A stretch of DNA of 64,000 nt from Thermococcus peptonophilus (GCF_001592435.1 NZ_CP014750.1:1674001-1738000); one strand, 5' to 3'. Positions 45,456 to 50,118 are shown, counted from the first letter of the stretch. A program made the numbers and translations. The notes: generated from the sequence alone by a model not told the origin.

Positions 45456-45502
45456 GTTCCACCGTACTCGATAGGCTTTAAGAGCTTTCCTAAATCCCGA
45501 CA

Positions 45503-45898
45503 TTACTCGGACGAGCCGAACAGTTCAAGACACACCCTGCACCTTTTTGGATCGAGCTCGGGGTCAATCTTTGAATGGAATGAACATACGTAGCCCTTCC
45601 CTAGCATGTAAACAGCTATTTCCATCAGCCTTTTCTGGATGGCGTACTCGCTTGGCCTTTCATTAAGAATCCAATCGGCGGTCCCCTTAATGAGAGAATC
45701 AACGTCCGGAAAAGATGAAACATCAATTAGAGCTCCCCTGTTCATCCTCAGGTAGCGGGAAACCGCCGACTGTGTGATGTGGAGTAAGCTAGCTATTTCG
45801 GTCTGCTTCAGGCCTTTCTCCCTGAGTATCCCCACGAGCCTTCTCCTCAGGGAGGGATAGACGTAGCGCGAGGCCACTTCGAGAGGGCTTATCTTCAT
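45503..45898 (-). CDS. HTH transcriptional regulator with C-terminal Cys/His set
   Basis: 131 residues. A helix-turn-helix (LRRRLVGILREKGLKQTEIASLLHITQSAVSRYLRMNRG, about 17-55) is followed by a helical part and a tail with C105, H108, C120 and C123 (C-x2-H, then C-x2-C). Those residues could hold zinc or an Fe-S cluster, or act as a thiol sensor. It has its own TATA-like promoter (cttaaataatt) inside the 34-base gap after the TusA-like gene. It resembles the archaeal COG2522-type regulators. Candidate regulator of the divergent FprA locus next door; that is inference from position. Confidence 0.8.
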   Translation of the reverse strand: MKISPLEVASRYVYPSLRRRLVGILREKGLKQTEIASLLHITQSAVSRYLRMNRGALIDVSSFPDVDSLIKGTADWILNERPSEYAIQKRLMEIAVYMLGKGYVCSFHSKIDPELDPKRCRVCLELFGSSE

Positions 45899-45932
45899 GG
45901 GTGATCATCTGGGACTGAATTATTTAAGGTTT

Positions 45933-46412
45933 TCAGCTCTTCTCCAGGGCCTTAAGCTCCTCCATCATCATCCTAAAGCGTTCGTCGCTCATTCCGATGA
46001 GCCTCTTCGCCCCCTTCAGGGTTATCGTCCTCGCGAGGGTCTTTCTCATAACTGGGTTCTCAAGGGGGGAGAAGCCGTACTTGACGAGTATCTTCAGCGA
46101 TTCCGGATAGGCCTTCAGGAGCTTTGCAACGTTGGTGTCTTCCGTTATCTCCACGAGCTTGTCGTCGCACTCTTCCTTGACCTCCATCTTAAGTTCCTTC
46201 GAGTCTTCCGTTTTGGTCACCTTAAGCACGAAGAAGCCCGAAACCTCTTTAACCTCGATTTCATAGCCCGCTTCCTCGAGCTTTGGGAGCAGGTCAACGA
46301 AGGGCTTGTCCCCTATCACTTCCAAGGTCTCCCCAGTTTTGAGCTTTCCGAGGGCTTCCATGATCATAACCGCCGGCTGTGGCGCCTTCAATCCTCTAAC
46401 GTCAAGCATCAT
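45933..46412 (-). CDS. TusA/SirA-like domain (Cys-less) fused to DUF1858
   Basis: 159 residues from ATG 46412 (next ATG at 46409), preceded by GGTGGTAAAG. The N-terminal ~75 residues match the TusA fold (LDVRGLKAPQPAVMIMEALGKLKTGE) but the sulfur-carrying Cys of C-P-x-P is Ala (KAPQP). The C-terminal part (VAKLLKAYPESLKILVKYGFSPLENPVMRKTLARTITLKGA) is DUF1858, common in redox/NO-responsive loci beside hemerythrin DUF438 proteins. Thus it is unlikely to be a sulfurtransferase. Divergent from fprA across a 110-base region with paired operator-like sites. Confidence 0.82.
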   Translation of the reverse strand: MMLDVRGLKAPQPAVMIMEALGKLKTGETLEVIGDKPFVDLLPKLEEAGYEIEVKEVSGFFVLKVTKTEDSKELKMEVKEECDDKLVEITEDTNVAKLLKAYPESLKILVKYGFSPLENPVMRKTLARTITLKGAKRLIGMSDERFRMMMEELKALEKS

Positions 46413-46428
46413 CTTTACCACCAATTCC

Positions 46429-46512
46429 AGATATGACACTTGACATATAAACGTTTCTGGGCAGACTTGACCAGCAATGCTTATAAACATTTGATATGAC
46501 ACCCGTCATGAA
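46429..46512. promoter_or_regulatory. divergent promoter region with two near-identical operator-like sites
   Basis: Site 1, ATATGACACTTGACATAT (46431-46448), overlaps the leftward TATA (minus strand CGTTTATATG, about 46444-46453). Site 2, ATATGACACCCGTCATG (46494-46510), lies between the rightward TATA (TTATAAA, 46481-46487) and the fprA ribosome binding site, at the expected transcription start. Both share ATATGACAC-x2-G-x-CAT and are imperfect palindromes; site 2 has perfect arms ATGAC/GTCAT. One copy per promoter suggests a single repressor controls both directions. The regulator is not known. Confidence 0.6.
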
Positions 46513-46521
46513 GGTGATATT

Positions 46522-47706
46522 ATGAAAACCGTTGAGATAACAAGTGGTGTCCACTGGGTGGGGGTCAAAGATTGGGACAGGAAAATTTTCGATGCCCTCA
46601 TTCCCCTGCCCCATGGGACTTCCTATAACGCATACCTGGTCATGGGGAGTGAGAAAACTGCCCTCATAGACACGGTGAACCCTGGTTTTGAGGGTGAGCT
46701 TGAGGACAAGATAAACGAGATTATGGACGTGGCGGATATTGATTATATAGTCATGAACCACGCCGAACCCGACCATTCGGGCGCGATTCCGTACCTGCTG
46801 GAGAGGAATGAAAAGGCCGTTCTGGTTGCGACGAAGAAGGGCGCGGACATAGCGAGAGCATATTATGATGTGCCGGAAGACAGGGTCATGGTTGTGAAGG
46901 ACGGTGATGAGGTCTCCCTCGGCGGGAGGACGTTGAGGTTCATAGAAGCTCCCTGGCTCCACTGGCCGGAGACCATGTTCACCTACCTCGTGGAGGATAG
47001 AATACTGTTCACGTGCGACTTTTTCGGAACCCACCTCGCAAGGGGCTTCTACGACGATGGTGTGCCAGACATCCTGACGCATGCCCAGAGGTACTTCGGC
47101 GAGATAATGATGCCTTTCTCCGCCATGGCGAGAAAAGCACTTCAGAAGATTGGGGAACTTGAGATAGAGATGATCGCCCCGAGCCACGGGCCCGTATACA
47201 GGAACCCGAGAAGGATAATCGAGGCGTATAAGGGGTGGAGCAACGGCAAAACGCGGGAGAAAGTGCTCATAGCATACGTGAGCATGTACGGCACCAACGA
47301 GGGAATGATTAAGGAACTCGCGACCCGCTTAACCGCCGAGGGGATAGAGGTCGTTGTTTACAACCTTGTGAACTTGGACATAGGGGAGATAGCCAAAGAC
47401 CTTGTGGATTCGAGAGCAATAGTGCTCGCCGCGCCCACCGTACTTGGAGGGGCCCATCCGCTGGCAGTCTATGCTGCATACCTCGTAAAAGCCCTCAGAC
47501 CACCGGCAGAGTATGCCGTTTTAATAGGCTCCCACGGGTGGCACGGGAGGAGCAATGATGCTCTCCTAGAAGTGCTGGGGGGAGTGAACCTCGAACTTCT
47601 GGGCACTCTTGACGTCCACGCGAGGCCCAGGAGGGGTGATTATAACGAACTCCTCAGGCTAACGAACCTGCTGATAAAAAAGGTTAGGGGGGATGAGAAT
47701 GACTGA
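46522..47706 (+). CDS. fprA: FprA family flavodiiron protein
   Basis: 394 residues: a metallo-beta-lactamase-type di-iron domain with all ligands (MNHAEPDHSGAIP: H, E, D, H; PWLHWPE: H; FTCDFFGTH: D; APSHGPVYR: H) and a C-terminal flavodoxin domain (IAYVSMYGTNEGMIKELA, LAAPTVLGGAHPLAVYA). It reduces O2 to water or NO to N2O with electrons from rubredoxin, protecting this strict anaerobe. GAAGGTGAT lies seven bases before the ATG. It is first in an operon with a DUF438 protein and an M24-like protein. Confidence 0.93.
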   Translation: MKTVEITSGVHWVGVKDWDRKIFDALIPLPHGTSYNAYLVMGSEKTALIDTVNPGFEGELEDKINEIMDVADIDYIVMNHAEPDHSGAIPYLLERNEKAVLVATKKGADIARAYYDVPEDRVMVVKDGDEVSLGGRTLRFIEAPWLHWPETMFTYLVEDRILFTCDFFGTHLARGFYDDGVPDILTHAQRYFGEIMMPFSAMARKALQKIGELEIEMIAPSHGPVYRNPRRIIEAYKGWSNGKTREKVLIAYVSMYGTNEGMIKELATRLTAEGIEVVVYNLVNLDIGEIAKDLVDSRAIVLAAPTVLGGAHPLAVYAAYLVKALRPPAEYAVLIGSHGWHGRSNDALLEVLGGVNLELLGTLDVHARPRRGDYNELLRLTNLLIKKVRGDEND

Positions 47707-49039
47707 GCTTTTAAACAACCGCGAGTACAAGAAGGAACAGCTCAAGAGGCTCCTCCTCAGGATACACGAGGGGGAGAGCGTTGAGAAGCTTAAGGATGAG
47801 TTCAGACAGGTTTTAAGTGGCATATCCCCGCTTGAGATACCCCTTATCGAGCAGGAACTCGTGAAGGAGGGAATATCTGCGAAGGACATAGCCAAGATGT
47901 GCGACCTCCACGTTGAACTCTTCAGGGAAGCGGTTAAGGGAACCGACGAGCTTGAGGAGAGAGATTTACCCGACGGCCACCCGCTCAAGACCCTCTACCT
48001 TGAGAACAAGGAGATAATGAAGGACGCCGAGATGCTCAACCTCTACGCGAGAACGCTCGCCACAACGAAGGACGAGCGCATGAGGAAAGAGATTCTGGGA
48101 GTGCTTGAGGAGATAGTGAGCAACCTTCGGAAGGTCGGATTCACCCACTACAACCGCGAGGAGATGCTGACCTTCCCCTACATCGAGCGGAGAGGTTTAA
48201 CCGCGATAGCCACCGTCCTCTGGACGAAGCACGACGAGATCAGGTTCATGATCAAGTATCTGGCTGAACTTCTCAGAAAGAGGGAAGAAATGCCCTGGGA
48301 CGAGTTCGTTGAGCGCTTTAAGAACAAGGCAGGTGAAGCGGCCTTCGCCCTCAGCGACATGGTCTTCAGGGAGAACAACATCTACTACCCAACTCTAAAG
48401 GCACTCCTCAGCGAGGGCGAGTGGAAAGCCATAAGAATGCAGGAAGATGAGTACGGCTACTACAAGGTGAACCCACCTGAATGGGATCCTGGAGAGGACG
48501 TTAAGCCTCTCCATCCATGGGAGATAAACCCCGAGCTGAGCGTTGAGCAGCTTCTCGGTTTGCCGAAGGAAGTCCAGGAAGCCCTAAAAGGCCAGCCCCT
48601 TGAGTTTGACAAGAGCGAGCTTAAGAGGGAGGGGGACATAGACCTCGGGACAGGCTACCTCAACATCGAAGAGCTTAGGGCCATCTTCGAGGCCCTACCA
48701 GTTGACGTTACTTTCATAGATAAAGATGATCGCGTTCGCTTCTTCTCCCCAGGTGAGAGGATATTCGGCCGCTCTCTCAGCGTCCTCGGAAGGCCGGTTC
48801 AGCTCTGCCATCCGCCGAAGAGCGTCCACATCGTCAACAAAATCCTCAGGGCCTTCAAGGAGGGCAGGAAAAAGGAAGCAACCTTCTGGATAAGGCTCGG
48901 GCCAAAATACGTTTACATCAGGTACGTTCCCCTCTTCAACGAGAAGGGCGAATACATAGGGACGCTTGAGATGACCATGGACATAGCACCTTACAAAGAG
49001 ATAAAAGGAGAAAAGCGCCTACTTGACTGGAGGGATTGA
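47699..49039 (+). CDS. DUF438 protein: hemerythrin-like domain plus PAS domain
   Basis: 446 residues. DUF438 N-terminus (about 1-85), then an HHE hemerythrin-like four-helix bundle (DGHPLKTLYLENKEIM, VGFTHYNREEMLTFPYIERRGL, LWTKHDEIRFMIKYLAE, with likely iron His/Glu ligands), then a PAS-like domain (FEALPVDVTFIDKDDRVRFFSP to YIGTLEMTMDIAPYK). It probably senses or binds O2/NO at a di-iron site and a PAS cofactor. The start at ATG 47699 has AGGGGGGAT correctly spaced; ATG 47693 lies too close to it. It overlaps fprA by 8 bases. Confidence 0.85.
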   Translation: MTELLNNREYKKEQLKRLLLRIHEGESVEKLKDEFRQVLSGISPLEIPLIEQELVKEGISAKDIAKMCDLHVELFREAVKGTDELEERDLPDGHPLKTLYLENKEIMKDAEMLNLYARTLATTKDERMRKEILGVLEEIVSNLRKVGFTHYNREEMLTFPYIERRGLTAIATVLWTKHDEIRFMIKYLAELLRKREEMPWDEFVERFKNKAGEAAFALSDMVFRENNIYYPTLKALLSEGEWKAIRMQEDEYGYYKVNPPEWDPGEDVKPLHPWEINPELSVEQLLGLPKEVQEALKGQPLEFDKSELKREGDIDLGTGYLNIEELRAIFEALPVDVTFIDKDDRVRFFSPGERIFGRSLSVLGRPVQLCHPPKSVHIVNKILRAFKEGRKKEATFWIRLGPKYVYIRYVPLFNEKGEYIGTLEMTMDIAPYKEIKGEKRLLDWRD

Positions 49040-49041
49040 AA

Positions 49042-50118
49042 GTGAGGGGCGACGAGAAGATCTTCAGAAGAAGGGTCGAGCGCTTTCAGGAACTTATGAG
49101 GGAGAACGACATCGATGGGGCCGTCATAAGGACGCTCTCCACCTTCATATACTTCACCGGAACCAAGTGGCTACGTCCGAGCCTTCTCATCCCCGCTGAA
49201 GGAGAGCCAACTGTGTTCGTCATCAAAGGGGAAGCTGAAGAGTTCAGAAGGAGGAGCTGGATAGAGGACGTGCGCGAGTTCCAGCGCGTTGAAGACTTAA
49301 TGGCAGGTGTTGTGACTTGGGTGAACGGCAACGGCTTTTCAAGGGTTGGACACGAGTTCAGCGTCGAGAGGGACGCTTACCTTCTCTTTCTCAAGCTCTT
49401 CCAGAGGCTCAACCCGATGGTTGAGGTGGTTGACATTCTCGAACTCACAATGAGCCTCAGGATGATAAAGGACCCCTGGGAGATAGAGAACATCAGGAAA
49501 GCGGGAAAGATAGCGCAGAAGGGCATGAAGGTTGCCGAAGAGGTCATAAGACCGGGAGTGAGCGAGACAGAGATTGCCGCCGAGGTTTACCGCGAGCTGA
49601 TGATCAACGGGAGCGAAGAACCCAAGGTCTACGTTTCCACAACCCCTAGGGCGCACGCCGAGCCTTTTAGGGACTTAAAGGTGAAGGAGAACGGGGTTGT
49701 CACGGTGGTCATCGGAACCGACTGGAACCACTACTACGCCAACACCGCGAGAACCTTCGTAGTTGGAGAACCCGGAGAGAGGGTCAGGAGGGCAATAGAA
49801 GTTAAGGAAAAGGCCCTTCAGATAGCCCTCGAGGAGACCCGCGTTGGGGCAACGTTAAATTCAGTTGAAAAGAAACTCTCGGACTTTTTCAAGGAGAACG
49901 GCTTTGGGGACGCCTACCTTGCCGGCTACACCCACGGCGTCGGCCTTCTCATCGAGGAACTCCCGATGCCTACAATAGTGGTTCCGACGAGGGCAACCAA
50001 GGTTGCCGAGAACATGGTGCTCAGCATAATTCACACACCGCTGATGATCCCGGAGGGAGCAATAAAGCACGAGGACACCTACCTCGTGAGGAAGGACGGC
50101 CTCGAGAGGCTCACGTGA
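49042..50118 (+). CDS. M24 (Xaa-Pro peptidase-like) protein with altered metal site
   Basis: 358 residues: creatinase-type N-domain (MRENDIDGAVIRTLSTFIYFTGTKWLRP) and pitta-bread C-domain. Usual metal ligands D, D, H, E, E appear changed: GTDWNHYYANTARTF has Asp then Asn where the second Asp is expected; THGVGLLIEEL keeps His; SIIHTPLMIPEG has His where Glu of EPG is expected; KHEDTYLV keeps the last Glu. It may be a non-peptidase homologue or bind metal differently. GTG 49042 has GGAGGG seven bases upstream; TTG 49036 is too close to it. Third gene of the fprA operon. Confidence 0.72.
   Translation: MRGDEKIFRRRVERFQELMRENDIDGAVIRTLSTFIYFTGTKWLRPSLLIPAEGEPTVFVIKGEAEEFRRRSWIEDVREFQRVEDLMAGVVTWVNGNGFSRVGHEFSVERDAYLLFLKLFQRLNPMVEVVDILELTMSLRMIKDPWEIENIRKAGKIAQKGMKVAEEVIRPGVSETEIAAEVYRELMINGSEEPKVYVSTTPRAHAEPFRDLKVKENGVVTVVIGTDWNHYYANTARTFVVGEPGERVRRAIEVKEKALQIALEETRVGATLNSVEKKLSDFFKENGFGDAYLAGYTHGVGLLIEELPMPTIVVPTRATKVAENMVLSIIHTPLMIPEGAIKHEDTYLVRKDGLERLT

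Follow-up and report, generated by a model that had tools for sequence, protein, structure and literature searches.

SurR and other redox regulators of the Thermococcales are small archaeal DNA-binding proteins whose Cys residues sense redox. The nitric oxide (NO) regulons described in bacteria are governed by HcpR, NsrR, NorR or DNR and pair a dedicated regulator with palindromic sites, which stand before hcp, before genes for flavodiiron or flavorubredoxin NO reductases or before hemerythrin-like genes, and which persist while the gene order varies (PMC1274295). Their regulators are CRP/FNR-type proteins (HcpR, DNR, NnrR), NsrR or NorR. DUF1858 and DUF2249 proteins have been found in nitrate-respiration and NnrR contexts (PMC6282519, PMC6710368). 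Two archaeal proteins are also close to those considered here: the class III hybrid cluster protein of P. furiosus, a class for which there is an M. marburgensis structure, and P. furiosus PF0695, a solved protein (PDB 3cax) that is named 'uncharacterized', with no function attached in its records. A search of the literature for Thermococcales, Hcp and a regulator found nothing, as did one for DUF438 and hemerythrin, and among the papers searched none described a nitrosative-stress regulator for Thermococcales or Thermoproteota.

Here we describe a locus of Thermococcus peptonophilus that probably belongs to a repressor-controlled regulon for NO or reactive nitrogen, with a small HTH protein as the regulator. 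It lies within a stretch of 64,000 nucleotides (GCF_001592435.1 NZ_CP014750.1:1674001-1738000), referred to below as the window, from which all positions are counted unless a contig or locus is named.

Layout of the locus and its operators

The features of the locus are as follows.

45503..45898, minus strand: HTH protein, 131 aa, with the HTH at residues ~16-52, a helical middle and a C-terminal C105-x2-H108-x11-C120-x2-C123
45922..45930, minus strand: putative TATA element of the HTH gene (CTTAAATAA)
45933..46409, minus strand: TusA/DUF2249-like plus DUF1858 protein, 158 aa
46431..46448: operator 1 (ATATGACACTTGACATAT), which runs into the TusA TATA element from its downstream side
46445..46453, minus strand: TATA element of the TusA promoter (GTTTATATG-type), conserved in relatives
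46458..46475: central element CTGGGCAgactTGACCAG, between the two divergent promoters
46480..46488, plus strand: TATA element of the FprA/DUF438/M24 promoter (CTTATAAAC), conserved in relatives
46494..46511: operator 2 (ATATGACACCCGTCATGA), located where transcription is expected to begin, with the TATA element on one side and the start codon on the other
46522..47706, plus strand: FprA flavodiiron protein with a full set of diiron ligands
47693..49039, plus strand: DUF438 plus hemerythrin plus PAS_10 protein
49036..50118, plus strand: M24 (prolidase-like) protein whose metal site is altered in a conserved manner

The five genes and their named domains lie where a sequence-only reading of the window had placed them. 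The same reading had proposed a single operon of FprA, DUF438 and M24, and since FprA overlaps DUF438 and DUF438 overlaps M24 end to start, co-transcription of the three is very likely. The TusA-DUF1858 gene is divergent from this operon and the HTH gene follows it on the same strand, 34 bases downstream. The stop codon of the HTH gene shares bases with the start codon of a tRNA (uracil-5-) methyltransferase-like gene (TAATG, window 45501-45505), a pairing that was not seen in any of the relatives' loci retrieved. The genes do adjoin one another in relatives, and the operators are common to them even where the genes are scattered.

The intergenic region of about 50 relatives gives the palindrome ATGACAnnTGTCAT as the operator consensus, with both copies kept and each adjoining the TATA box of one of the divergent promoters. 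In the window the copies read ATATGACACTTGACAT at 46431-46446 and ATATGACACCCGTCAT at 46494-46509. The paired copies had been noticed from the sequence alone, and they are indeed two ATGACAnnTGTCAT-type sites at divergent promoters; in the 1.9-Mb genome, exact matches to the pattern ATATGACACNNGNCAT are confined to these two, and allowing one mismatch adds one further site. The third operator of the genome stands before hcp. Operators placed in this way at both promoters would suit repression, a mode of action that we infer from their position. The central element is a palindrome, TGGGCAn4TGCCCA, in many relatives, the palindromy being absent in the most divergent ones, which tells against a second operator; it is perhaps an activator site. 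In many genomes a perfect or degenerate operator also lies behind the TATA box of the HTH gene itself, unlike in the window, where the HTH promoter has no recognisable operator-like sequence after its TATA.

Proteins encoded at the locus

The iron ligands of FprA (H80-x-E82-x-D84, H147, D166 and H222) are complete, as had been claimed, and are invariant in 15 homologues. By sequence its best PDB relative is 1ycf, annotated as a nitric oxide reductase, which it matches over nearly the full length, though 2ohh and 6frm score nearly as well. The protein has the metallo-lactamase core and flavodoxin part of its class, with Pfam Flavodoxin_1 falling just below the cut-off. FprA was found in about 15 genomes only and its nucleotide identities are discordant with those of DUF438: 90% against 81% to G016, 76.5 against 67.5 to G075, and 70 against 81 to G077. 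This discordance indicates that FprA has passed between lineages without the genes beside it, and we take FprA to be an optional insert, horizontally acquired into the slot behind the operator. It was accordingly rejected as a core member of the system. At least two FprA lineages share this slot (window 46522-47706).

The next protein of the operon has the DUF438, Hemerythrin and PAS_10 domains that had been assigned to it and is an orthologue of PF0695, the hemerythrin-PAS part aligning gap-free. In the TusA-like protein the catalytic position of the C-P-x-P motif is occupied by Pro in 34, Ala in 16 and Leu in 1 of 51 sequences. A role as a sulfurtransferase was rejected, as the catalytic Cys is missing from all 51. 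The description of this protein as 'Cys-less' therefore holds for the sulfurtransferase Cys but not for the whole chain, which has a single Cys, Cys81 in the linker, conserved in 48/51. In several relatives the TusA-DUF1858 gene is frameshifted or split (L080, L083, L088 and L079, from G030, G012, G026 and G028), with DUF438 and M24 intact.

Of the five metal ligands that define a prolidase (D, D, H, E, E), His300 and Glu346 are all that the M24 protein keeps. Val225 and Asn236 stand where the two Asp would be, and the place of the first Glu is in the 'IIHTP' stretch, with His333 beside or at it. The protein had been called degenerate, and the three ligands are indeed lost throughout, for which reason a peptidase role was rejected; as the altered residues are themselves invariant in 55-57 homologues, the pattern argues for a conserved non-peptidase role. 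Many relatives carry, between DUF438 and M24, a gene of about 105 aa (L054:9263-9580, L062, L066) that we label cupin-like from a reading of its translation; it is absent from the window.

Operator targets and the likely signal

We scanned 160 bases upstream of each gene in the relatives, taking the best site per genome with at most two mismatches. An operator was found upstream of TusA in 53/53, FprA in 14/14 and HTH in 50/67, counts that may include a site belonging to the facing promoter, which is within range of the scan. It was present upstream of Hcp in 41/46 and of DUF438 in 52/68, or 52/53 where DUF438 is the first gene; of the 16 misses at DUF438, 15 have FprA in front of it and the remaining one is G017. 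Four of the five misses at Hcp look like misplaced N-termini and the fifth, G072, has a damaged site in a locus whose DUF438 and TusA genes are themselves broken. No operator was found upstream of M24 (0/60) or of a control gene, the neighbouring thioredoxin-like gene (0/38), the shuffled expectation being about 0.1-0.7 genomes per gene. Among 94 Thermococcales genomes a strict form, TATGACAnnTGTCATA, is present in 39, with 44 sites in all, every site being at HTH, Hcp, TusA or DUF438; its reversed control gave none in the same 94. The existence of a small, dedicated and narrow regulon is thus well supported.

The gene for the hybrid cluster protein, hcp, lies outside the window at C1:189076-190440 on the minus strand, about 1.5 Mb from the locus along the contig, a distance that shrinks to about 0.3 Mb should the contig be circular. 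Besides the operator in front of it there is a second, ATGACTTATGTCAT, about 80 bases from the first. The protein matches the TIGR01703 equivalog with 654.6 bits against a cut-off of 360.8 and has eight conserved Cys columns in the alignment; its best PDB matches are 7e0l and 7wsx, annotated as hydroxylamine reductase. In most relatives hcp is divergent from the HTH gene across the operator pair and often adjoins TusA. Here the intact HTH gene stands behind TusA, and beside hcp there is a decayed HTH copy (L046:6666-6904, at G000:C1 ~190.7 kb) in two fragments, 57-77% identical to the HTH proteins of relatives. The sequence-only reading had named five genes as the set. These stand, but the set lacked hcp and the cupin-like gene that is often present; FprA is optional within it and the HTH protein is likely its regulator.

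In this genome hcp and a flavodiiron gene are under one operator, and together with the hemerythrin-like genes they match the pattern of bacterial NO regulons, in which hcp and hemerythrin-like genes occur (PMC1274295); this likeness points to NO. NO reduction is seen as the most likely function of HCP (PMC10210160; PMC13056359), and we take hcp as a marker of defence against NO. No operator, even allowing two mismatches, was seen near a second, canonical flavodiiron gene (C1:200881). As the main further target of the operator is hcp while that gene is operator-free, we consider, with moderate confidence, that NO would be a more likely signal than O2. Two-mismatch operator-like sites were seen at the canonical flavodiiron gene of Pyrococcus-like genomes (L204:1477, L211:3153).

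Flavodiiron proteins of the FprA type can use either O2 or NO as substrate, and the scores of 2ohh and 6frm nearly equal that of 1ycf. It might be that the regulon and its regulator are the same but the signal is O2 or peroxide, the system scavenging O2 at the vent with Hcp as a peroxidase. HCPs show several low-rate activities, peroxidase included (PMC13056359), but another archaeal HCP had no enzyme-dependent peroxidase activity (PMC10210160). The main O2-defence set (SOR, rubrerythrin, NROR and FdpA) forms a separate cluster (PMC4463584), the second flavodiiron gene here is without an operator, and it is hcp that is the most constant further target. Three Pyrococcus-like genomes do have a weak two-mismatch site at the canonical flavodiiron gene or a nearby HTH gene, which leaves some room for an O2 role; overall we think O2 or peroxide an unlikely signal, though one to be taken seriously. 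Of the O2/NO defence locus first proposed, what stands is a conserved, co-regulated regulon of defence type, and for its O2 half the evidence leans instead to NO or reactive nitrogen.

The HTH protein and its relation to known regulators

The Cys/His set noticed in the HTH protein is real: C-x2-H-x11-C-x2-C is invariant in both alignments of 18 sequences, and C-x2-H-x(10-11)-C-x2-C is found in 30/30 Thermoproteota relatives. This invariant Cys3-His site suggests a metal or Fe-S sensor. At 131 aa the protein lacks CRP/FNR, Rrf2 and sigma54-activator domains and so is not of the HcpR, NsrR or NorR type. Its structure was predicted with a mean pLDDT of 86.5 and had no PDB fold match better than E 0.9, and no described family was found for it. 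The copy in the window is more diverged than its neighbours, being 67% identical to that of G029, against 94-96% for TusA and DUF438.

The HTH gene and an effector (Hcp or DUF438) occur together in 69/94 genomes, HTH alone in 0, an effector without HTH in 6 and neither in 19 (P=5e-15, with shared ancestry not corrected for). Of the six effector-only genomes, four are known from fragmentary assemblies only and in G065 a contig ends at the locus, leaving G017 as a real exception; this genome, near-complete and with no contig break there, has DUF438 but no HTH, and the surroundings of its DUF438 promoter are kept while the palindrome is lost. The linkage extends to a second phylum. An HTH relative at E<=1e-15 was found in 115/398 Thermoproteota genomes, and among the best 30 of these 115 the gene in most cases immediately follows DUF438, in many of them with an overlap, whereas four are divergent from hcp. 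In many Thermoproteota loci HTH is paired with DUF438 with no hcp alongside. The core palindrome of the operator recurs there: TGACAnnTGTCA, one mismatch being allowed, was found where DUF438 begins in 21/23 (0.15 expected); its second half overlaps the coding start, so that its conservation may be partly coding, while the first half is upstream.

That the HTH protein binds the operators is a strong inference from this presence/absence linkage, from the operator loss in G017 and from the recurrence in Thermoproteota, and it is likely that the protein is the regulator of the regulon. The operators could instead be bound by another, unlinked regulator, with HTH merely a neighbour or a co-regulated gene. 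The HTH gene in the window has no recognisable operator of its own, and in G005, G007 and G009 it is far from its presumed targets, with operators remaining at hcp and/or DUF438. An unlinked regulator would have to account for the co-occurrence of HTH with effectors, the eroded operator of HTH-less G017, the HTH remnant beside hcp and the recurrence in the second phylum with a different gene order, and we consider it improbable. That there is no single function, only a conserved redox neighbourhood with a general promoter element, is scarcely credible: divergent promoters do share sequence by geometry and the central TGGGCA element adjoining both is also conserved, but the palindrome is absent at M24 and the control, and across the 94 genomes its strict form is confined to these genes, staying with them where they have been relocated.

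With the HTH protein as the repressor of an NO regulon, the following mechanism would seem reasonable. In the resting state HTH, presumably as a dimer, would occupy the ATGACAnnTGTCAT palindromes, which coincide with the TATA boxes or closely follow them, and would thereby block transcription of hcp, TusA-DUF1858 and FprA/DUF438, along with that of its own gene in most relatives. A metal or Fe-S centre in the Cys3-His site would react with NO or a related species, upon which the protein would release the DNA and the effectors would be made. Hcp and FprA may then reduce NO, and the DUF438-hemerythrin-PAS protein may use a diiron centre to bind NO or O2, or may repair clusters. For TusA-DUF1858 and the peptidase-dead M24 we would suppose an accessory or binding role; we hold the type of centre and these effector roles only weakly.

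The Thermococcales, which include the genetically tractable T. kodakarensis and P. furiosus, are not known to be denitrifiers, and the proposal raises the question of where strictly anaerobic hyperthermophiles meet NO. It offers a concrete candidate for a nitrosative-stress regulator, for which a DNA site, a small number of targets and a likely place of sensing can be named, and a context for three orphan families: DUF438-hemerythrin-PAS, TusA-DUF1858 free of the catalytic Cys, and the peptidase-dead M24. More tentatively, HTH may found an archaeal NO-sensor family that has a Cys3-His metal or Fe-S centre, spans two phyla, is partnered by DUF438-hemerythrin-PAS and controls hcp. If this is true, HTH would be the archaeal counterpart of NsrR and HcpR, and PF0695-type proteins would gain a function.

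In its dedicated regulator and palindromic sites, in the kinds of genes before which these stand and in the persistence of the sites as gene order varies, the system resembles the bacterial NO regulons (PMC1274295). Unlike those, which use CRP/FNR-type, NsrR or NorR proteins and other sites, it has a small archaeal HTH protein that carries a Cys3-His motif at its C-terminal end and whose presumed site is ATGACAnnTGTCAT. The Hcp here is an equivalog match to the class III protein, but its gene is tied to the locus only by the operators and the HTH remnant. From SurR-like regulators the HTH protein differs in its site, its Cys arrangement and its targets.
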